DNA of 31,789 nucleotides from the IMG/VR virus record IMGVR_UViG_3300002138_000087, positions 1 to 31,789 of that record; one strand, given 5' to 3'. Below, one piece after another: positions 380 to 29,992 of the stretch (its first letter is position 1; every line of letters starts with the position of its first letter). Source of the stretch: a virus. The position numbers and the translations under genes were made by a program. The notes beneath the pieces are model-generated. The model was not told the origin of the DNA. It searched no databases and was given only the letters and a program-made list of their open reading frames with translations.

Positions 380-453
380 GGTCCTGTAGTTTAATAGTTT
401 AGAACGCAACGCTTTCATCGTTGATAATGTGGGTGCAACTCCCATCGGGACTA
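380..453 (+). tRNA. tRNA-Glu(TTC)
   Basis: A cloverleaf folds by eye. The acceptor GGTCCTG pairs with CGGGACT with two G-T pairs. The anticodon arm is CAACG-CTTTCAT-CGTTG, giving anticodon TTC. The T arm is GTGGG-TGCAACT-CCCAT and the discriminator is A453. Only CC follows, so CCA is not fully encoded. Confidence 0.85.
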
Positions 454-546
454 CCTTAGAGTAAAATGTAAGCATGAAACTAACGGGTTGGGACAATAAC
501 CATAAAGATTCCTGATATAGATACTTGTAACATTGCTCAACTAATT

Positions 547-617
547 GCGGGCGATTGTGTAAGTTATGCATAATTGGCTCATAACCAATTGGGAGTCGTG
601 CGATTCGGCTGCCCGCT
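547..617 (+). tRNA. tRNA with CAT anticodon (Met, fMet or Ile2), first of three
   Basis: The acceptor GCGGGCG pairs with TGCCCGC. The anticodon stem ATTGG/CCAAT holds loop CTCATAA (CAT), and the T arm is AGTCG-TGCGATT-CGGCT. The discriminator is T617, followed by ACA rather than CCA. Which of the three CAT tRNAs is initiator, elongator or lysidine-modified Ile cannot be decided by eye. Confidence 0.85.
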
Positions 618-722
618 ACAGATTAGTCATGGATTTCGGCATGACAATTAGCACAAAGAAGTTCACATTTAAGAACTTCTTCCGAAATTTGGGATTCAGT
701 ATAACTCCCAACTCCCCAAATG

Positions 723-809
723 ATGGAACTTGATAACAAGAAGAAATTTGTAATAGGTTGGATTAAATCTAAAGAAAAAATTCAGTGGCTACCAGAATAT
801 AATGCTTGA
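723..809 (+). CDS. Small hypothetical protein (28 aa)
   Basis: ATG 723 to TGA 807-809 encodes a 28-residue Lys/Trp-containing peptide (MELDNKKKFV...QWLPEYNA). It overlaps the next start at 802 by a few bases in another frame. It lies in the segment that splits the HNH gene. No promoter or domain was recognised. Confidence 0.4.
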   Translation: MELDNKKKFVIGWIKSKEKIQWLPEYNA

Positions 810-1008
810 ATTTCAAAAGCCAATACCTGTTATTGTAGAGGGTGAAAAAGAAGGTTACGCTATTTATGTTACAGATAGCGGACAATTTGAAAACGATATA
901 TGGTGCGTTGTTCATTGCGAAGGCGGAATTGTCAGACATTATCGAAGTGATCAAATTAAAATTCACATGAATGCAACTTTTGGAATAGATAAAAACAAGG
1001 CATTGTAG
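802..1008 (+). CDS. Small hypothetical phage protein (68 aa)
   Basis: The frame starts at ATG 802 and stops at 1006-1008. The middle (DIWCVVHCEGGIVRHYRSDQ) and the end (KIHMNATFGI) look like a genuine small beta-rich phage protein, and composition favours this strand over the antisense frame. It fills the segment separating the two halves of the HNH gene, so it is either the intruding sequence or a resident gene caught in a rearrangement. Function is unknown. Confidence 0.6.
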   Translation: MLEFQKPIPVIVEGEKEGYAIYVTDSGQFENDIWCVVHCEGGIVRHYRSDQIKIHMNATFGIDKNKAL

Positions 1009-1362
1009 GCAATTTGCAGAGGTTATTTCAAATAATTTTTGTGATGGGTCTTTGTGATGAAAGTGTAAAGCCTTGTTGGATTTTTTATATCCACAAATTT
1101 TACATTGACCACCTAGAATAGTTTGGTATTTTATTTTTAAGTTTTTACGGTGAGTAGTCTGACGACATTGTTTTTTTAATTTTACTTCTGGATTTAAGAA
1201 GTAAGAAATTGTTCCTTTAGAACAATTCAATTCGTTGGCAATCTGGTTATAGGAATAACCTTGGTCACGTAATTTATTTATTTGTATTTCAAGTGTCATA
1301 CACATGAATATGTTCAACTCATAAAAGAGTCGAACAAACTAAAAAATAATTTGAAAAAAGAA

Positions 1363-1398
1363 TTGACGAATTGAAAAGTGTCTGATATATATAGACAC
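1363..1398 (+). promoter_or_regulatory. Promoter overlapped by a perfect palindrome (candidate operator)
   Basis: TTGACG (1363-1368), 17-nt spacer, TATATA (1386-1391). A perfect 6-bp inverted repeat, GTGTCT (1378-1383) and AGACAC (1393-1398), brackets the -10 and reaches the expected start site near 1398. That is a typical position for a repressor operator. Confidence 0.6.
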
Positions 1399-1536
1399 AT
1401 AACAAGACATAATTGTATGATGACAACTAAACATAATTTTAATAATCGCAAGGATTGCCAAGGAGGCAACGGTTAAGAAGTCGTGTAAGTGTTAGAGATT
1501 TCAACCGTCACCTCCAAAAAGAAGTGACGGTTTTTT
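1398..1536 (+). ncRNA. Attenuator-like leader RNA with alternative hairpins
   Basis: The expected transcript runs from about 1398 to an intrinsic terminator. It contains a 19-codon frame (1417-1476). The strand 1503-1515 can pair with 1462-1474 (GGAGGCAACGGTT, 11 of 13 pairs) or with 1524-1532 (GTGACGGTT, 9 of 9). The second pairing is the terminator, so the two are mutually exclusive, as in attenuators. tRNA-Gln and tRNA-Cys follow. The ligand or signal, if any, is unknown. Confidence 0.5.
1503..1536 (+). terminator. Rho-independent terminator
   Basis: Perfect 9-bp stem AACCGTCAC (1503-1511) / GTGACGGTT (1524-1532) followed by a run of T to 1536. Confidence 0.85.
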
Positions 1537-1586
1537 GTTTTTGAAGTTTTAGAAAAAACTCCGTAGAGGCAGAGTGTAAATCACAG

Positions 1587-1668
1587 AGCCGGTTGATTCC
1601 GAAAGAATCAGTCACCAACGACAGGTCAAGCGGCTTTATCCACCGAAAAGAAAAGGATTTATCCGGCT
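1587..1668 (+). ncRNA. Structured RNA candidate upstream of tRNA-Gln
   Basis: A closing stem AGCCGG (1587-1592) / CCGGCT (1663-1668) encloses a perfect hairpin TGATTC-CGAAA-GAATCA (1594-1610) and a second small hairpin ATCC...GGAT. No reading frame of note is present. It could be a separate small RNA or a domain of the tRNA precursor. No known family was recognised. Confidence 0.4.
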
Positions 1669-1710
1669 GTAACATAGAAGTTTATGTGCTAGTCTGAAAA
1701 ACTAGATCAT

Positions 1711-1788
1711 TGAGATGTCGCATAGCGGCAATTGCGGGAGCCTTTGAAGCTCTGTCTATCGTTGGTTCGAGTCCAACCATCTCAGCCA
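1711..1788 (+). tRNA. tRNA-Gln(TTG)
   Basis: The acceptor TGAGATG/CATCTCA is perfect. The anticodon stem GGAGC/GCTCT holds loop CTTTGAA (TTG), and the T arm is GTTGG-TTCG AGT-CCAAC. The discriminator is G and CCA is encoded. Confidence 0.92.
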
Positions 1789-1800
1789 TTTTTAGTTAAC

Positions 1801-1883
1801 GCAATATTGGTCGATTGGGAAGGCAACTCTCTGCAAAAGAGTATGGTGAAAACCTAAAAGAAGTTCGATTCTTCTATATTGCT
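1801..1883 (+). tRNA. tRNA with GCA anticodon (Cys) and a long variable arm
   Basis: The acceptor GCAATAT/ATATTGC is perfect. The D stem is only 3 bp (GTC/GGC). The anticodon arm ACTCT-CTGCAAA-AGAGT gives GCA, and the T arm is AGAAG-TTCGATT-CTTCT. The discriminator is T, the usual CysRS identity base. The variable region is 16 nt and folds as GGT-GAAA-ACC, which is a class II feature normally confined to Leu, Ser and bacterial Tyr tRNAs. CCA is not encoded. Confidence 0.85.
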
Positions 1884-1938
1884 CATATTTTGAAAATTTG
1901 TTCGATTAACATAGTGATGAATGGTCTAAAAATAACCG

Positions 1939-1966
1939 TTGACAAAAATATAGAACAAGTTAATAT
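1939..1966 (+). promoter_or_regulatory. Promoter of tRNA-Ile, start site at the mature 5' end
   Basis: TTGACA (1939-1944), 16-nt spacer, TAATAT (1961-1966). The expected start, 7 nt after the -10, is 1973, the first base of the tRNA. Confidence 0.75.
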
Positions 1967-1972
1967 ACAAAT

Positions 1973-2047
1973 AGTGGTGTAGCTCAGAGGAAGAGCCTTC
2001 GACTGATAATCGAAAGGTCGGGATTTCAAAATTCCCCACCACTACCA
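1973..2047 (+). tRNA. tRNA-Ile(GAT)
   Basis: The acceptor AGTGGTG/CACCACT is perfect. The D arm is GCTC...GAGC and the anticodon arm TTCGA-CTGATAA-TCGAA gives GAT. The T stem GGGAT/TTCCC has one mismatch. The discriminator is A and CCA is encoded. Confidence 0.9.
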
Positions 2048-2052
2048 AATTT

Positions 2053-2178
2053 ATGAAAAAAGATTCAAAAGACTACAAATATCAAAAGTTTAACCAAAAG
2101 CAAAAAACTTGGAGTCGAAAGAATCGGTTCAAACAACGTGGTAAAAAGTTCGTTGACAAAGAGGTGGAGTTGTCATAA
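2053..2178 (+). CDS. Small basic hypothetical protein (41 aa)
   Basis: ATG 2053, TAA 2176-2178. It is very rich in Lys, Gln and Arg (KYQKFNQKQK...SRKNRFKQRGKK) with a short acidic end, which suggests nucleic-acid binding, but there is no fold to recognise. It sits 5 nt after the encoded CCA of tRNA-Ile and may share its transcript. Confidence 0.6.
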   Translation: MKKDSKDYKYQKFNQKQKTWSRKNRFKQRGKKFVDKEVELS

Positions 2179-2190
2179 TCTACTAAGAAT

Positions 2191-2313
2191 ATGAAAACGT
2201 GGTTGACGAATAAAGACGGTTGGATTCATCGTCACAACGAATATGGTGATGAACCTGAGTGGATTGGAATGATTCACAACACAGATGGTGAGAAATGGTT
2301 CAAAACCTCTTGA
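2191..2313 (+). CDS. Small hypothetical protein (40 aa)
   Basis: ATG 2191, TGA 2311-2313. It is Trp-rich (MKTWLTNKDGW, EPEWIGMIHN, EKWFKTS). It follows the basic 41-aa gene by 12 nt, so the two probably form one unit. Its stop codon is nested in the TTGACA of the promoter at 2310. Confidence 0.6.
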   Translation: MKTWLTNKDGWIHRHNEYGDEPEWIGMIHNTDGEKWFKTS

Positions 2314-2337
2314 CAATCAAAACGTTTCTGTTAGATT
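2310..2337 (+). promoter_or_regulatory. Promoter for the following tRNAs
   Basis: TTGACA (2310-2315), 16-nt spacer, TAGATT (2332-2337). The expected start near 2344 is about 6 nt ahead of the tRNA-Lys-like gene. Confidence 0.6.
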
Positions 2338-2349
2338 AAGAAACGTAAC

Positions 2350-2436
2350 GGGTCAGTAGCTCAATGGGATTGAAGCTTTAAAGTGAAGCAATTGCCTTTT
2401 AAGCAATTGAAGTCGGAGCGTTACCGACCAGTCCTA
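2350..2436 (+). tRNA. tRNA-Lys(TTT), divergent or decayed, with an insertion after the D arm
   Basis: The anticodon arm ATTGC-CTTTTAA-GCAAT gives TTT, and the T arm GTCGG-AGCGTTA-CCGAC is perfect. The acceptor GGGTCAG/CAGTCCT has two mismatches. About 13 extra bases, bounded by a GAAGC repeat, separate the D arm from the anticodon stem. It may be a pseudo-tRNA. Confidence 0.5.
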
Positions 2437-2461
2437 CTTTGGTTTTTAAACTTTTTTAATC

Positions 2462-2542
2462 GGGCCGGAAGCTTAAACCTTTGTATAAGCACTCGACTCA
2501 TAATCGAAAGATAGCCGGGACGATTGCCGGCGCGGCCCACCA
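2462..2542 (+). tRNA. tRNA with CAT anticodon, second of three
   Basis: The acceptor GGGCCGG pairs with GCGGCCC in six of seven positions. The D stem is GCTT/AAGC, the anticodon arm TCGA-CTCATAA-TCGA, and the T stem GCCGG/CCGGC. The discriminator is A and CCA is encoded. The HNH gene on the other strand ends immediately after it. Confidence 0.8.
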
Positions 2543-3079
2543 TTAATACTTATTTAAATGTGGGTGGTGATGTTCTCCGTGACAATTTCCACATAGAAGT
2601 TCACATTTATTTGCTTCATTTAATAAGATTTTCCAATTAAGTGCAGCTACGTGATGTGAATCTAAATTAAATGTTTTTTGTGTTGGGTCTTTGTGATGAA
2701 AGTGAAGAGATGCATAATTTCTATTATAACCACAGTTAATACACTTTCCACCATATAAATCAACCAGTTTCTTTTTTCGATTAACTCTACGAGTATTGTT
2801 GGTTTGTTGAGTGCTTTTATTAAAACAATTAATACACCAATGGTGAATACGATTATCGTTTCTTTTATAAAATTCACCGATAGATTTTTCAATATCACAT
2901 TTAGAACAAACTTGACTTTTGGTTGGTTGTTGGGGTTTGATAGTTTTTAATCCATGTTTTTTAAGCCAATAACGAACATTAGTTTGAGAACAGTTTAATT
3001 CTTTTGCAATTTCATAGGATGATAGATTTTTATTGACGAGTTCGGATAGTGTGTTAATATTCAACCAGAGGAAATACAT
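2543..3079 (-). CDS. HNH homing-type endonuclease with N-terminal HTH
   Basis: This 178-residue protein has three parts. A helix-turn-helix-like segment spans about residues 12-45 (SSYEIAKELNCSQTNVRYWL). A zinc knuckle pair follows at 58-85 (CSKC...CINC). The C-terminal HNH domain has CINCGY, LHFHHKDP and LLCGNCH. It should cut or nick DNA and spread its own gene. It abuts tRNA-Met and faces a truncated plus-strand gene, as expected for an inserted mobile gene. The same family is present in broken form at 623-1299. The base composition is AT-rich compared with the small phage genes. Confidence 0.9.
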   Translation of the reverse strand: MYFLWLNINTLSELVNKNLSSYEIAKELNCSQTNVRYWLKKHGLKTIKPQQPTKSQVCSKCDIEKSIGEFYKRNDNRIHHWCINCFNKSTQQTNNTRRVNRKKKLVDLYGGKCINCGYNRNYASLHFHHKDPTQKTFNLDSHHVAALNWKILLNEANKCELLCGNCHGEHHHPHLNKY

Positions 3080-3201
3080 TTATACGTGACTTCAAAGGAA
3101 CATTGTGCGGTCTGCTTAAACATGGATTTGAAATCGGTTATGAGATTTACGAATTTGACACCCAATCCGAGTTGTTTATTTGGTTGAGTCAAAAGGGTTA
3201 G
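3080..3201 (+). pseudogene. 3' remnant of an interrupted phage gene
   Basis: A convincing coding frame ends at TAG 3199-3201 (RDFKGTLCGLLKHG...QSELFIWLSQKG) but has no start. It begins directly next to the start of the HNH gene. The 5' half is not in the window, so the original gene was probably cut when the HNH gene and tRNAs were inserted or rearranged. Confidence 0.5.
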
Positions 3202-3209
3202 TGACGAAT

Positions 3210-3279
3210 TGCAGTGCCTTTAGTTAAGGACACGTGTTTCATAAGCACATGTAAGTGGGGGCAGTACCCACCACTGCAA
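3210..3279 (+). tRNA. tRNA with CAT anticodon, third of three
   Basis: The acceptor TGCAGTG/CACTGCA is perfect. The D arm is CCTT/AAGG. The anticodon stem GTGT/GCAC holds loop TTCATAA, with one mismatched pair at the base. The T arm is GTGGG-GGCAGTA-CCCAC. The discriminator is A and only CC follows. Confidence 0.85.
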
Positions 3280-3281
3280 CC

Positions 3282-3436
3282 TTAATCAAGATAGACGAGA
3301 TCAGTCTCTATATAACGGATGGAGATATAACAACTCGGAATTGGTTTGTTAATAAAAATATTGGCGTTACTCATGTATCCGTAAAATATTTTCCAGTGAA
3401 ATCCTTAAAATGATTAAAATTTAATGGGTATGTAAT
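3282..3436 (+). other. Spacer between tRNAs, no gene seen
   Basis: This 155-nt AT-rich stretch has a GAGAT...GAGATATAAC repeat around 3298-3330. I see no convincing frame, promoter or tRNA in it. Confidence 0.5.
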
Positions 3437-3519
3437 GCTCACATAGTCGAGCCTGTCTTCGAAACAGGTAATCGTAATTGGAACTGAAATTGGCGGTTCG
3501 AGTCCGTCTGTGAGCACCA
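3437..3519 (+). tRNA. tRNA-like gene with TCG anticodon (Arg), D arm missing, long variable region
   Basis: The acceptor GCTCACA/TGTGAGC is perfect, with discriminator A and encoded CCA. The anticodon arm CCTGT-CTTCGAA-ACAGG and the T arm GGCGG-TTCGAGT-CCGTC are sound. Only 8 nt lie between the acceptor and the anticodon stem, so no D arm fits. The variable region is 23 nt. It may be a rearranged pseudo-tRNA or a specialised tRNA-like RNA. Confidence 0.6.
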
Positions 3520-3651
3520 AAATAATTCATCGTTACTTGAACCTGCGTGCTTGGAAAAGTATCTAAAATTTTAGATATTACACATACTCAAACAAAAAGA
3601 TTCATTAAGAAACATTACAACGGTGAGTATTTGACTCACAAAAGAAAAGTT

Positions 3652-3723
3652 GCCTCCAAAGCATAGAAAGCGATGCACTACATTGGTAATGTAGATAGCA
3701 GGGTGCATGTCCCTGTGTTGGCT
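3652..3723 (+). tRNA. tRNA-Thr(GGT), acceptor stem imperfect
   Basis: The D stem is GCAT/ATGC. The anticodon arm CTACA-TTGGTAA-TGTAG (GGT) and the T arm CAGGG-TGCATGT-CCCTG are perfect. The acceptor GCCTCCA/TGTTGGC mispairs at two central positions. The discriminator is T, with no CCA. It may need repair or be decayed. Confidence 0.7.
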
Positions 3724-3732
3724 CATAGTCGT

Positions 3733-3818
3733 GCCGGTGTAACCATAACAGAAATGGCCCTGTTTCGTAAACAGGTGGTGTAAACCAATTGTAGGTGCAA
3801 GTCCTATCACCGGCTCCA
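3733..3818 (+). tRNA. tRNA with CGT anticodon (Thr) and a long variable arm
   Basis: The acceptor GCCGGTG/CACCGGC is perfect. The D stem is CCAT/ATGG and the anticodon arm CCTGT-TTCGTAA-ACAGG gives CGT. The T stem is GTAGG/CCTAT. The 15-nt variable region folds as TGGT-GTAA-ACCA, a class II trait not expected in a Thr tRNA. The discriminator is T and CCA is encoded. Confidence 0.8.
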
Positions 3819-3979: not shown

Positions 3980-4009
3980 ATGAGCACCGATATTTCTACC
4001 GGTGCTCAT
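3980..4009 (-). terminator. Terminator of the minus-strand block
   Basis: The inverted repeat GAGCACCG (3982-3989) / CGGTGCTC (4000-4007), extended by ATG/CAT, is followed on the minus strand by ATTTTTATTTT. It lies downstream of the last minus-strand gene. Confidence 0.75.
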
Positions 4010-4116
4010 GGTCCATTCACCACCACTAACAGTTGAATGGTTGTTAGCACCATTGGGACCGTCTGTCAAACAGAGGCGCCTCCACCACCAAGTTTGGATT
4101 TAAACTTGGAAAGAAC
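4010..4116. other. Structured spacer, possible decayed tRNA
   Basis: The segment contains GGTCC...GGGACC, CTAAC...GTTAG, a TCTG-TCAAA-CAGA hairpin, and ends in CACCACCA before a perfect CCAAGTTT/AAACTTGG hairpin. It has tRNA-like pieces, but I could not fold a cloverleaf on either strand. Confidence 0.3.
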
Positions 4117-4437
4117 TTATGTCACGACACTTACAGTTCGTTGATTCGCCTCATTGAGTACCCGACCCAAGGCAATTTTAACACCCAACGCTTTGTTGTA
4201 ACCCTCACTCTTGGAACAACGTGACTCTGCGACAATATCAACGCCGGTTGTAGTTGTCAACCTAATTTCCGTGACACCACCACGGGGATCAGCCGTCACG
4301 AATGAAGGAATCGCCGACAAATCACGTTGATATTGGGTCAACAGTTCCCAACGACGATTCACTGGATTGAAGTAACGACGCTTGTGCAGAACCATTACCT
4401 TGTTACCAGCCTTACGGAGTGAATGAATTGTAATCAT
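4117..4437 (-). CDS. Hypothetical protein (106 aa), leaderless
   Basis: The -35 TTGACT (4469-4474) and -10 TATATT (4447-4452) lie just before ATG 4437, leaving 9 nt between -10 and start. The protein is basic. Its C-terminal half (TEIRLTTTTGVDIVAES...SEGYNKALGVKIALGRVL) looks like one beta sheet plus a helix. No family was recognised. It is the last gene of the minus-strand block before the terminator at 3980-4009. Confidence 0.8.
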   Translation of the reverse strand: MITIHSLRKAGNKVMVLHKRRYFNPVNRRWELLTQYQRDLSAIPSFVTADPRGGVTEIRLTTTTGVDIVAESRCSKSEGYNKALGVKIALGRVLNEANQRTVSVVT

Positions 4438-4932: not shown

Positions 4933-5256
4933 TTAGATTTTTTCTACATTCGTCAACTTGATTTCATCTCTCCAAGTTTCGTAGAGTTTAATTTTAGCGT
5001 TGAGATAAACATGAAATGATTTGTCATTCTCAGTCAATTGTGACTCATCTGGGTGTTGAACCTCCCAACGGCCTAACATTCGATACAAGCCACTTAGTGC
5101 ATCAACGAATAGAGAATCCACTCTATCTCTCACTAATGCATCTGGGCCAAATTGGGGGTCAATGGTTGCCCCTTCGCCGAATGCTTTTGCGGCATTGTCG
5201 TCGGTTGGTAACAATCCCACTAGGGAAATTGAATAGGTAAATTTTGCGGTGTCCAT
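4933..5256 (-). CDS. Hypothetical protein (107 aa)
   Basis: ATG 5256 lies 4 nt after the stop of the upstream membrane-protein gene, so they are co-transcribed. The middle is helical (DRVDSLFVDALSGLYRMLGRW) and the C-terminus mixed (VYLNAKIKLYETWRDEIKL). It resembles small phage proteins that follow membrane-protein genes, but no domain was identified. Confidence 0.75.
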   Translation of the reverse strand: MDTAKFTYSISLVGLLPTDDNAAKAFGEGATIDPQFGPDALVRDRVDSLFVDALSGLYRMLGRWEVQHPDESQLTENDKSFHVYLNAKIKLYETWRDEIKLTNVEKI

Positions 5257-5463: not shown

Positions 5464-5586
5464 TGGGCATGGCCGGACTCGAACCGGCACGGGTTTTAAG
5501 GCCCTGCAGATTTTGAACTGCGGATAAAACCCATCTTTATCCGCAGATGACGAAGTCTGCTGCGTCTTCCGTTTCGCCACATGCCC
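5464..5586 (-). tRNA. tRNA-Leu(CAA) with a 38-nt hairpin insertion in the anticodon arm
   Basis: The acceptor GGGCATG/CATGCCC is perfect. The D arm is GCG/CGC. A class II variable arm (GGG...CCC) and the T arm GCCGG-TTCGAGT-CCGGC are all sound. Between the 5' anticodon stem GCAGA and the loop TTCAAAA lie 38 extra bases (5518-5555). Removing exactly these restores a canonical arm GCAGA-TTCAAAA-TCTGC with anticodon CAA. The insert contains an 11-bp perfect hairpin (5518-5528 / 5536-5546). It is too short for a group I intron, so it is an unusual intervening sequence or a decayed tRNA. Confidence 0.8.
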
Positions 5587-5591
5587 ATTAT

Positions 5592-6017
5592 TTATCGTTT
5601 TTTGTTTCGCCAGTTTTTTGTCAATGCGTGACAATTACAACATACTAATTGAAGATTGTCAACATTGTTATTCGTTCTATCACCATCAATATGATGAACT
5701 TCCAATGGAATATTTATATCTAACCACGTTTTTAACTTACAGTTTTCACATTGATGACCACGTAAGATTATCAAGTGTTTTTTTAAGTGTTCTACTTTGG
5801 TGTATTTGGACCAATCTTTTAGTTGTTGACCACGATTCCAAGCTTGTCCAGTCCAATGTGATGTATCGACATTGAGGTTCTGTAAGAGCCTCTTCATATT
5901 CGCATAATTCCCCCCAGCTTGAACAAGGTTTAATTTCCTTAATAATCCAGCAAGGGAGGATACGGCTTTTGCTGCTTGAATTACATCGTCATTGGTATAG
6001 TCTCTGTATTTTCTCAT
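5592..6017 (-). CDS. HNH homing-type endonuclease (141 aa)
   Basis: The N-terminal half is helical (DVIQAAKAVSSLAGLLRKLN), a DNA-binding region seen in phage HNH nucleases. The catalytic HNH motif is complete, with C90xxC93, LEVHHIDGDRTNNNVDNLQ at about 105-123, and C126xxC129-H. It should nick or cut DNA in a metal-dependent way. It sits just upstream of tRNA-Leu on the same strand, so tRNA-adjacent insertion is likely. No promoter is visible; it probably depends on readthrough. Confidence 0.92.
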   Translation of the reverse strand: MRKYRDYTNDDVIQAAKAVSSLAGLLRKLNLVQAGGNYANMKRLLQNLNVDTSHWTGQAWNRGQQLKDWSKYTKVEHLKKHLIILRGHQCENCKLKTWLDINIPLEVHHIDGDRTNNNVDNLQLVCCNCHALTKNWRNKKR

Positions 6018-14833: not shown

Positions 14834-15514
14834 TTGAATAAATCTCCAGACGAACGTTTTTTGATTGAATCTAAAAAACAAAATACTAATCTGGAAAAAT
14901 ACGGCGTAGAATATCCATCCACTTTACCAAATAATAGAAAAAAGTCAAAAATTAAAATGGTAAAGTTTTGGGAAAGTTTGAATGATGATGAAAGAACTGA
15001 TTTGATATTGAGTTTTCAACATGCGTGGACGGAAGAACGACGCAACGATAAAAGTCTTGATATGAAAGTGTTGTGGGCTTCTCTAACCGATGAGGAAAAA
15101 CAATTCCGGTTATCTCGGTTACATGCTGGAATAAAATCCACATCTTCACTAGAAACGAGAATTCAAAAAATATTCAATACGTGGAAATCATATTCATCAT
15201 TTGAGTATATACCACACTTTTATATTAAGTCAACAAATTACGATTTTTTGATAAACGAGTCGTTTATATTGGAAGTAAATGGTGATTACTGGCACGCAAA
15301 TCCAAAAATTTATAAATCAGATGATGTTTTTCAATTTTCATGGGGTCGAATGACCTCATCTGACATTTGGAATAAAGACGAAACAAAGCGAAAATTGGCC
15401 GTTGACAATAACTATAAAATTGGTTATATTTGGGAATCGGATATGAATAAGTTGTCCGACATTGATTTGGAGTCTCTTTTAATCGACATAATAAATGAAA
15501 ATTTCACTTGGTAA
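14834..15514 (+). CDS. Vsr-like PD-(D/E)XK homing endonuclease (226 aa)
   Basis: The C-terminal domain (about 105-226) has the layout of Vsr-type homing nucleases: SLETRIQKIF, YDFLINESFILEVNGDYWH, then DETKRKLAVDNNYKIGYIWE. The Glu-Val-Asn-Gly-Asp-Tyr-Trp-His block is the metal-binding core. The N-terminal half is a DNA-binding region (TNLEKYGVEYPS, LNDDERTDLI). The start used here is TTG 14834. The frame is open slightly further 5' without ATG, so the N-terminus may be truncated. Its end overlaps the RNA ligase start by 20 bp. AT-rich, hence likely acquired. Confidence 0.8.
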   Translation: MNKSPDERFLIESKKQNTNLEKYGVEYPSTLPNNRKKSKIKMVKFWESLNDDERTDLILSFQHAWTEERRNDKSLDMKVLWASLTDEEKQFRLSRLHAGIKSTSSLETRIQKIFNTWKSYSSFEYIPHFYIKSTNYDFLINESFILEVNGDYWHANPKIYKSDDVFQFSWGRMTSSDIWNKDETKRKLAVDNNYKIGYIWESDMNKLSDIDLESLLIDIINENFTW

Positions 15515-16580
15515 TATTGACCGAGAAATCTTCTATGTAAACGAACATGTTTTACATGGTGAGGTGATGTATTTGGTTACACCGAAACATATCGGTGTCA
15601 AGTGGACCAATGATAACAAAATTTTCCGATCAAGTCTTTGGAATTCTGATGGTGAGTTGGTTTCTGCATCATTTCCAAAATTTACGAATTGGGGAGAAAA
15701 TCCAGAAAATTTTCCTGTTCCAAATTCTCTAACCAATACCACAGTCATTGAGAAAATGGATGGAAGTTTGTTATGCATCTCGAAAAATCGTGGCCATTTC
15801 ATACTTCGTACCCGTGGAACGGTTGACGCAACCAAGTTGGACAATGGCGCAGAACTGGCTGCCTTTCAACCTATTCTGGATGATTTGAAGGAACGATACA
15901 ATTCAAACACTTGGGACTTCTCTCTGTTGTTTGAATGGTTGTCACCAACGAATGTTATCGTGATTAACTATGGTAATGAACCACTGTTTTCTTTGATTGG
16001 TTGCATTGACCATGATGATTACTCATTGACTCCACAATCTATCTTGGATTCTTGGGCTGCGGTCTGGAAGGTCGCACGGCCTCAGTCCTATACTTTCAAG
16101 TCAACCGAGGATTTGTTGTCTATGGTGGACTTGTGGAAGGGCAAAGAGGGTGTCTGCGTTTACTCCAAGAATCAACAAATGATTCATAAGGTGAAGTCCG
16201 CTGATTATCTTGTGAAGCATCGTTTCAAGTCAGAAGCTACGCTTGAAAACACTCTTGAGTTATATTTTCAATTAAATTGTCCAACCTATGTTGAGTTTGA
16301 AACCAAACTTGTGGAACTGTTTGATTGGGAATGTTTTGAGATGGTTCGTGGATACGCATCTTCTATTTGTGATGCGGCCAAACAGGTCAATCAAATAATC
16401 GCAGGAATTACTGCGTTTGTCGAGCCATTGAAGATAAAACCACGTAAAGATGCGGCCATAGCTATTACATCGTCTTACGGTGAAACAGGCAGAAGTGGCA
16501 TGGCATTTACATTGTTAGATTCAAAACCTCTAACAAATGACCAACATAAGAAATTGTTTTGGCAGGTTCTCAAGAAATAA
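15495..16580 (+). CDS. RNA ligase, T4 Rnl1-type nucleotidyltransferase (361 aa)
   Basis: All core motifs of covalent nucleotidyltransferases are visible. Motif I is EKMDGS with adenylated Lys87. A SFPKFTNWGE block precedes it, as in Rnl1. LLFEWLSP (about 144-151) is motif IIIa, KEGVCVY (217-223) motif IV, and HKVKS (231-235) motif V. The enzyme should join 3'-OH and 5'-phosphate RNA ends with ATP; in T4 it repairs tRNAs cut by host anticodon nucleases. That fits the tRNA cluster and the interrupted tRNA-Leu here. Translation may be coupled to the overlapping nuclease gene. Confidence 0.88.
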   Translation: MKISLGNIDREIFYVNEHVLHGEVMYLVTPKHIGVKWTNDNKIFRSSLWNSDGELVSASFPKFTNWGENPENFPVPNSLTNTTVIEKMDGSLLCISKNRGHFILRTRGTVDATKLDNGAELAAFQPILDDLKERYNSNTWDFSLLFEWLSPTNVIVINYGNEPLFSLIGCIDHDDYSLTPQSILDSWAAVWKVARPQSYTFKSTEDLLSMVDLWKGKEGVCVYSKNQQMIHKVKSADYLVKHRFKSEATLENTLELYFQLNCPTYVEFETKLVELFDWECFEMVRGYASSICDAAKQVNQIIAGITAFVEPLKIKPRKDAAIAITSSYGETGRSGMAFTLLDSKPLTNDQHKKLFWQVLKK

Positions 16581-24630: not shown

Positions 24631-24747
24631 ATGAAAGACCTACCTAAGTACATCAACGTTCGTGTGAAACGAATCATCACGGCAAAGTTTGGTGTAACTC
24701 TTTACCCTAACCGGGTTTATGAAGCCGAACGAGACGGGCCGAACTAA
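24631..24747 (+). CDS. Leaderless small protein ending RDGPN (38 aa)
   Basis: The promoter is TTGACA (24595-24600), 16 nt, TAACAT (24617-24622), with 8 nt to ATG 24631. The body is basic (KYINVRVKRIITAKFGVTLY), and the end ERDGPN-stop recurs at 29837-29872 in a shorter ORF with synonymous codon changes. The ORF 3' end is part of a structured RNA. It may be a leader peptide whose translation affects that RNA. Confidence 0.6.
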   Translation: MKDLPKYINVRVKRIITAKFGVTLYPNRVYEAERDGPN

Positions 24748-24867
24748 ACGGAAGCCCCGCCCACTCTACTAGGGAATGGGGGCACGGCCGAACAGGATGA
24801 GGCCATTCACCGAAGTCCGAGGTGGGTGGTAATGAAATGATGGGGAGAAAACCCCAGCAAATCTCGG
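24733..24867 (+). ncRNA. Repeated structured RNA, copy 1
   Basis: Four helices are visible: GGCC/GGCC (24737-24740 / 24801-24804), GCCCC/GGGGC (24754-24758 / 24779-24783), CACC/GGTG (24808-24811 / 24821-24824) and GGGG/CCCC (24842-24845 / 24852-24855). CCGAG (24817-24821) can also pair with CTCGG (24863-24867), forming a pseudoknot. Between helices, GGTAATGAAATGAT and AGCAAATCT are identical to copy 2 (29857-29992), while paired bases differ in compensatory ways. It ends just before a promoter. Family unknown. Confidence 0.7.
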
Positions 24868-24912
24868 CAAATCCCTTGACTTTTTATCAACTTTTGGTAG
24901 TCTATTTTCACA

Positions 24913-29836: not shown

Positions 29837-29872
29837 ATGAAACTAAGAAACGCTCGTGACGGTCCTAACTGA
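29837..29872 (+). CDS. Leaderless 11-aa peptide ending RDGPN
   Basis: The promoter is TTGACA (29803-29808), 16 nt, TAAATT (29825-29830), with 6 nt to ATG 29837. The peptide MKLRNARDGPN has the same last five residues as the 38-aa protein at 24631, with different third bases, and is followed by copy 2 of the structured RNA. Confidence 0.5.
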   Translation: MKLRNARDGPN

Positions 29873-29992
29873 ACGGAAACTCCCATCACCCTGTTAGTGA
29901 GGGAGTAACGCCGAACGTGAGCAGGGACTACTCGTTGAAATCCAAGACGAGTGGTAATGAAATGATAGGGAGAAAACCCTAGCAAATCTTGG
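29857..29992 (+). ncRNA. Repeated structured RNA, copy 2
   Basis: The same plan as 24733-24867 is seen. The pairs are GTCC/GGAC (29862-29865 / 29925-29928), ACTCCC/GGGAGT (29879-29884 / 29901-29906), ACTCGT/ACGAGT (29930-29935 / 29947-29952) and AGGG/CCCT (29967-29970 / 29977-29980), plus the pseudoknot pairing CCAAG (29942-29946) with CTTGG (29988-29992). Unpaired GGTAATGAAATGAT and AGCAAATCT are unchanged. It ends 2 nt before the next promoter. Confidence 0.7.

Follow-up and report, generated by a model that had tools for sequence, protein, structure and literature searches.

A 38-nt hairpin insert in the anticodon loop of a phage tRNA-Leu gene and its possible origin in tRNA-Leu homing

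How could a 38-nt insert have come to split the anticodon loop of a phage tRNA-Leu gene, and what becomes of it in the RNA? The window analysed here is a whole IMG/VR record, a fragment of 31,789 bases with 40% GC, and the interrupted class II tRNA-Leu gene lies at 5586-5464 on its minus strand. The best single answer, at roughly even odds, is that tRNA-Leu homing gave rise to the insert. The locus joins three subjects that are usually treated apart: small phage tRNA inserts, group I introns in phage tRNA-Leu, and an HNH endonuclease family that follows tRNA-Leu. Splicing of the insert would mean that phages can splice tRNAs by a route that uses neither group I/II introns nor EndA; if the insert stays in the RNA, homing can leave an occupied, non-splicing site.

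The window contains a tRNA cluster (380-3815) and several genes for homing endonucleases; it also encodes a TnpB of the IS605 type and an RNA ligase 1 of the T4 type. No annotated phage matched it at the DNA level. A bacterial host was assumed because some of the window proteins are related to those of bacterial phages. A second HNH endonuclease gene is located in the tRNA-rich region (2543-3079, minus strand), and a search with the neighbouring 107-aa protein gave no relative. Some other features were also observed. In a tRNA-Arg(UCG)-like gene (3437-3519, plus strand), an 8-nt stretch takes the place of the D arm, the variable region has 23 nt, and the CCA is encoded. A structured element that lacks annotation occurs twice (24700-24875 and 29845-29992, plus strand), with a 56-nt core that is 86% identical between the copies, and ends just before TTGAC...TATAAA promoters; the second copy had no Rfam match. 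Promoter-like repeats of the form TTGAC(A/T)TTTTATAAA stand before genes on both strands at many window sites (17414, 19936, 22780, 29995).

The interrupted tRNA-Leu gene and its insert

The Rfam model RF00005 matched the gene at 5464-5586 on the minus strand with 44.6 bits, despite a 42-nt gap stretch in the anticodon loop. The gene was not called by ARAGORN without the intron option; with the option -i, it reported c[5462,5586] as a tRNA-Leu(caa) that is interrupted after position 31 by an intron of 38 nt. These two results confirm the insert that the initial annotation had described. The 5' exon half (5556-5586, minus strand; 5' end at 5586) includes the acceptor strand, the D arm, and the anticodon 5' strand GCAGA. 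The 3' exon half (5464-5514, minus strand, starting at 5514 under the 34/35 reading) includes AAAATCTGC, the variable arm, the T arm, and the acceptor 3' strand. The discriminator A at 5464 is followed by CC at 5463-5462, and the full CCA is not encoded.

After excision of the insert, all of the stems are Watson-Crick: the acceptor stem (7/7), the anticodon stem (5/5, GCAGA/TCTGC), the T stem (5/5), and the variable arm (GGG/CCC). The cloverleaf, the long variable arm, and the Leu anticodon place the product among the class II tRNA-Leu, as had been claimed from the letters. When the region between the D and T arms was shuffled 5,000 times, an equally good class II Leu arm was restored once. 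The T arm matches that of known bacterial Leu(CAA) tRNAs. Over its full length, the excised tRNA-Leu aligns at 74-76% identity with intronless tRNA-Leu genes of jumbo phages (GAP32, CBB, RAS14, LucasX, and Kaldavass), and none of the aligned genes carries an insert. The jumbo-phage Leu(CAA) loops are mostly CTCAAAA (GAP32, CBB, BF, pEa_SNUABM_50, and LucasX), with TTCAAAA in others. A comparison with related phages had been suggested for this gene; it yielded these intronless relatives, but pattern scans, over a collection that may lack records close to the window, found no direct relatives of the insert-bearing form. The intact exons would favour a recent insertion and continued function equally.

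The junction can be placed in four equivalent registers within 5515-5555 (minus strand), each with five anticodon-stem pairs and U33. The 31/32 register (insert 5518-5555) gives the loop TTCAAAA and the anticodon CAA; the 32/33 and 33/34 registers (the latter with the insert at 5516-5553) give CTCAAAA and again CAA; the 34/35 register (insert 5515-5552) gives CTTAAAA and the anticodon UAA. The described position exactly between the anticodon stem and loop is therefore valid at 31/32, but it is one register among four. Likewise, the assignment as tRNA-Leu(CAA) is correct from 31/32 to 33/34 but not at 34/35.

The insert contains an 11-bp perfect hairpin with a 7-nt loop, CTGCGGATAAA-GATGGGT-TTTATCCGCAG (5518-5546, minus strand). 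When the insert was shuffled 200,000 times, 11 bp were reached once, and in the whole window only one other hairpin combines at least 11 bp with a 3-12-nt loop. Both the hairpin and the GCAG/TCTGC repeats around it are as first described. The restored anticodon arm together with the 11-bp hairpin is far beyond chance. Because of the GCAG...CTGC repeats, the pre-tRNA is able to fold with one extended arm or with two tandem arms; the minimum is -50.0 kcal/mol, and the two folds reach -49.8 and -47.0 kcal/mol, respectively. The insert is single-copy in the virus record, and no further copies of at least 20 nt were reported in the window. A mobile palindrome with other copies was rejected, as no exact match to the arms TGCGGATAAA-N7-TTTATCCGCA was found in viral contigs.

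Two explanations bear directly on these features. An assembly or sequencing artefact is conceivable in a metagenome-derived fragment, where palindromes can cause misassembly, but the insert is single-copy and the flanking exons together make one tRNA, and we regard this as extremely unlikely. The tRNA might also stay unspliced, its anticodon arm extended, and serve as a decoy that draws off the anticodon nucleases of the host, or have some other role outside translation. Phage tRNAs have been proposed to counter anticodon nucleases (PMC10264068), and the extended-arm cloverleaf differs from the minimum only as -49.8 from -50.0 kcal/mol. However, the hairpin has no sign of mimicking an anticodon loop and nothing similar is conserved, and such a role seems highly unlikely.

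The known intron classes were then compared with the insert. Group I introns have a conserved catalytic core (P3-P8), take up at least some 200 nt of RNA, end in G, and follow a 5' exon that ends in U. The insert is 38 nt long and lacks such a core, and a search for Intron_gpI with E values up to 10 gave no match, which agrees with the earlier statement that it is far too small for a group I or II intron. The termini do not fit either: under the 34/35 reading the exon ends in T but the insert ends in C, and under the 31/32 reading the insert ends in G but the exon ends in A. Without the catalytic core and the terminal G, the insert therefore cannot self-splice as a group I intron. In tRNA introns of the bulge-helix-bulge (BHB) type, a 4-bp helix lies between two bulges of 3 nt each. 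No BHB was found in any register; the central helix would have 1 of 4 pairs at 33/34, 1 at 32/33, 2 at 34/35, and 3 with a mismatch at 31/32. No PF01974 match for an EndA-type endonuclease was found in the window record.

The neighbouring HNH endonuclease and the insertion site

An HNH homing endonuclease gene (5592-6017, minus strand; 141 aa; phrog_10822, E=3e-30) ends 5 bp upstream of the tRNA-Leu on the same strand. The protein has the HNH motif and a family match, with 31-43% identity to homologues in phage genomes and up to 67% in viral contigs. A scan of viral contigs for this family gave 73 distinct loci. The HNH gene lies inside a tRNA-Leu(UAA) intron at 16 of them and within 130 nt of an intact tRNA-Leu at 37; it is near other tRNAs only at 2, and no tRNA was found nearby at 18. 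Among the tRNAs farther from the HNH loci, the Leu share is 33/251. In annotated phage genomes, 9 of the 13 inspected homologues are in or beside tRNA-Leu, including those of GodonK (Gordonia), Atu_ph07 (Agrobacterium), Francesca (Rhodococcus), S-CRM01 (Synechococcus), LR745208, Salmonella phage Munch, and Vibrio phage D69. Two annotated genomes, LR756511 and Dulem virus 42, have the homologue inside the tRNA-Leu anticodon loop. The best annotated homologue is that of the 595-kb phage LR756511, within a 700-nt tRNA-Leu(UAA) intron for which the Rfam support is weak. The link of this HNH family to tRNA-Leu is established. In Dulem virus 42 (L269:1395-2010), the HNH gene is directly within the anticodon loop with about 60 nt of extra sequence, its stop codon lies within the loop, and the Rfam group I match is absent.

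Group I introns of tRNA-Leu(UAA) are of the cyanobacterial/plastid type. The HNH-bearing introns in phage tRNA-Leu(UAA) split the loop between GACTT and AAAATC (34/35), are 688-945 nt long, and mostly end in G; two of them score above the Intron_gpI cut-off in Rfam (L303 with 63.3 bits, and L289 with 55.6 bits). Such group I-type introns with an HNH reading frame were found in the contigs L277-L279, L289, L298, L303, L304, L307, L311, L325, L327, L334, L338, L341, and L343, and at L257:2813-3610. According to a 2014 review, all phage introns then known lay in protein genes (PMC3984707).

In the viral contig L277, the exons CAGCAGACTT and AAAATCTGC are separated by 688 nt; in the window, the same CAGCAGACTT and AAAATCTGC are separated by 38 nt. 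Since these exons are equal, the insert occupies the position of the group I intron that carries this HNH family in relatives. The group I site (34/35, GACTT followed by AAAATC) is an available register in the window, and the anticodon arm is identical in L277. The coincidence of the two sites is established, although the 34/35 reading is only one of the four registers.

Because the HNH family is tied to tRNA-Leu and the L277 intron splits the same arm, the insert may be read as a scar, relic, or protective insertion left at a tRNA-Leu homing site by an HNH-based homing system (probability about 0.5). The HNH protein encoded upstream would be the endonuclease of the system that brought the insert. 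In related phages, members of the same family are encoded within the group I intron between positions 34 and 35 of tRNA-Leu(UAA); in the window, the HNH gene is free-standing, and a short non-catalytic hairpin stands at that place in the tRNA gene. The insert could be a deletion relic of an HNH-bearing intron, or could come from the repair of an endonuclease cut. An uninterrupted tRNA-Leu would be cut at the insert site, within the putative target arms GCAGACTTAAAATCTGC and GCAGACTCAAAATCTGC. Because the insert splits this target, the HNH of the phage would no longer cut its own allele, which would thus be protected. In co-infecting phages, intact alleles of tRNA-Leu could be cut, and the HNH-tRNA cassette could take their place. 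The RNA might remain unspliced, with a tolerated loss of the tRNA, or the insert might be removed by proteins. The initial annotation had left a choice between protein splicing and a dead or repurposed tRNA. These options are still considered here, but the adjacent HNH gene, with its relatives in group I introns at the site or beside tRNA-Leu, had been overlooked.

The pairing of a free-standing homing endonuclease with an intron located at the target of that enzyme is well established and is known as collaborative homing (PMC3984707, PMC10448857). The adjacency of that pattern is seen in the window, with the 5-bp gap and the shared strand. A parallel for a mobile HNH-tRNA cassette was found in the Serratia phage BF and the Erwinia phage pEa_SNUABM_50 (L252/L253, ~3000-3800). 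Their flanks are mostly ~99% identical, whereas the tRNA-Lys gene is only ~74% identical; in pEa_SNUABM_50 an HNH gene directly follows the intron-bearing tRNA-Lys. This tRNA-Lys region was read as a co-conversion tract.

Several observations count against the homing reading. The exons have no decay, the T arm is Leu(CAA)-like while the 34/35 reading gives UAA, and a comparison of the 38 nt with the insertions that carry the HNH gene in LR756511 and in Dulem virus 42 gave only chance matches of 6-7 nt. No small inserts were found in the intact tRNA-Leu next to free-standing HNH relatives, and thus the insert is not needed for their co-existence.

The gene may instead be dead or decaying, with a functionless palindrome inserted by chance and unrelated to homing. 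Phage tRNAs are often dispensable, and the insert has no conserved motif and no relatives that carry it were found. But all of the exon stems are Watson-Crick, and a chance insertion exactly at the homing/intron site, beside a matching HNH gene, would be a rare event. We consider a dead gene quite unlikely.

Small tRNA inserts in other phages and removal by proteins

A scan of class I tRNA genes for 16-46-nt inserts gave at least 120 loci; among the matches listed, 83 have intact acceptor and T stems. Excision restores a near-perfect anticodon arm in 26 of these 83 listed genes, against 0.16 expected from shuffled middles. One mini-intron family, here called F1, has an insert of ~40-53 nt, mostly at 28/29-29/30, with a covarying 7-bp hairpin followed by ACAGCAA. 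All 7 pairs of the hairpin show changes on both sides. Excision restores the anticodon arms, and a compensatory change is also seen across the intron, with CG paired to CG in BF but GG paired to CC in pEa_SNUABM_50. Two to four copies occur per complete genome in GAP32 (Cronobacter), CBB (Pectobacterium), BF (Serratia), D479 (Vibrio), and the Erwinia phages pEa_SNUABM_50 and Kaldavass. The loci include L248:1991-2117 and 296-410 (GAP32), L251:2307-2420 and 4008-4129 (CBB), L252:3003-3127 (BF), L253:1354-1469 and 3003-3124 (pEa_SNUABM_50), L254:3692-4097 and 5007-5126 (Vibrio D479), and many in IMG/VR. As these jumbo phages are culturable, phage tRNA splicing is open to direct testing. The F1-bearing genes in cultured jumbo phages, which include tRNA-Lys and tRNA-Glu genes, are annotated as odd or pseudo tRNAs. 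The F1 covariance model gave no window match at default filters, and membership of the insert in this family was rejected.

The first report of phage tRNA introns described 'enigmatic' conserved introns in Lak megaphages (Devoto et al. 2019, PMC6784885). Together with the F1 family, they contradict the initial statement that group I and II introns are the only tRNA introns known in phages.

Other RNAs were met in the scans. Three contigs, L031 (362 kb), L067 (147 kb), and L096 (424 kb), each have several tRNA genes with differing small inserts; all three encode a T4-type RNA ligase 1, and L096 also encodes RtcB. Most matches of the class II insert scan were rejected as introns, because they represent a different kind of tRNA-like RNA. 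These RNAs (L125-L244, e.g. L135, L143, L180, and L004) have the acceptor AGTCAGG/CCTGACT, a Leu-type D arm, and no recognisable anticodon arm. In the class I tRNA-like RNAs of L005, L035, L091, L110, L113, and L118, a conserved core CCTCATGGTGAAGG(A/G)CC... replaces the anticodon arm, and excision restores none.

The insert might also be a protein-spliced mini-intron. The loop would be cut on either side of the hairpin by a nuclease, close to U33/N34, which is also the cutting site of anticodon nucleases of the PrrC type. The tRNA-Leu halves would then be sealed by the T4-type RNA ligase 1 of the phage, acting together with a kinase/phosphatase. The intact exons are consistent with this reading, as are the textbook class II product of excision, 74-76% identical end to end to the intronless genes, and the abundance of small phage tRNA inserts, with the Lak introns as precedent. 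One junction register, 33/34, coincides with the known PrrC cut position, and removal by nuclease and ligase at 33/34 is possible. The window encodes a possible sealing enzyme, a predicted T4 RNA ligase 1-type (Rnl1) tRNA-repair ligase (15495-16580, plus strand; 361 aa) with the nucleotidyl-transfer motif KMDGS (PF09511, E=1e-10; phrog_562, E=3e-30); a sequence search against the PDB gave no match.

Against protein splicing, the insert is outside the covarying mini-intron family, the scans found no relatives of it, and Pnkp was not found among the scanned ORFs of the 31,789-nt fragment. We know of no splicing endonuclease for such an insert. Rnl1 was found in 10 of the 12 phage genomes tested, with or without F1 introns, and therefore does not decide the matter; it is widespread in jumbo phages irrespective of tRNA introns, and its association with them is suggestive in metagenome contigs but not discriminating in complete genomes. 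Protein splicing is considered less likely than not. The two ideas might also be combined, such that a functional protein-dependent mini-intron, cut by an anticodon nuclease at the wobble position and sealed by the ligase, would at the same time make up the resistant part of a homing unit whose other part is the HNH gene; we consider this combination somewhat unlikely.

Comparison with known systems

The tRNA family, the 34/35 site, and the HNH family are common to the window and to the group I introns found in tRNA-Leu(UAA) genes of LR756511 and of the phage contigs L277-L346. The window insert differs in its length of only 38 nt, in lacking a catalytic core and, at that site, a terminal G, and in having the HNH gene outside. 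The archaeal/eukaryal BHB introns are likewise small intervening sequences of tRNA genes, but the window insert is not at 37/38, has no bulge-helix-bulge, and is accompanied by no EndA match in the record.

The F1 family also places a hairpin-bearing insert in the anticodon arm of jumbo-phage tRNAs. It differs in its loop TTG(A/T), its ACAGCAA motif, and the 28/29-29/30 position of most members; with the filters off, the best local scores in the window are 1.2 and 0.8 bits. The Lak introns, compared by description only, are likewise small, break up the anticodon arm of the phage tRNAs that carry them, and are unclassified by Rfam, but they are conserved across cohorts, whereas no relatives of the window insert were found.

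In T4 tRNA repair, Pnkp and Rnl1 act after PrrC cleavage. The window has an Rnl1-type ligase and a candidate junction at 33/34, but here the joining would be across two cuts, with loss of the intervening RNA, and is only proposed. The collaborative homing of T7-like phages and a cyanophage likewise has a free-standing endonuclease gene beside a gene interrupted at the presumed target. In the window, the target is a tRNA gene, the insert is not self-splicing, and the cleavage is presumed.
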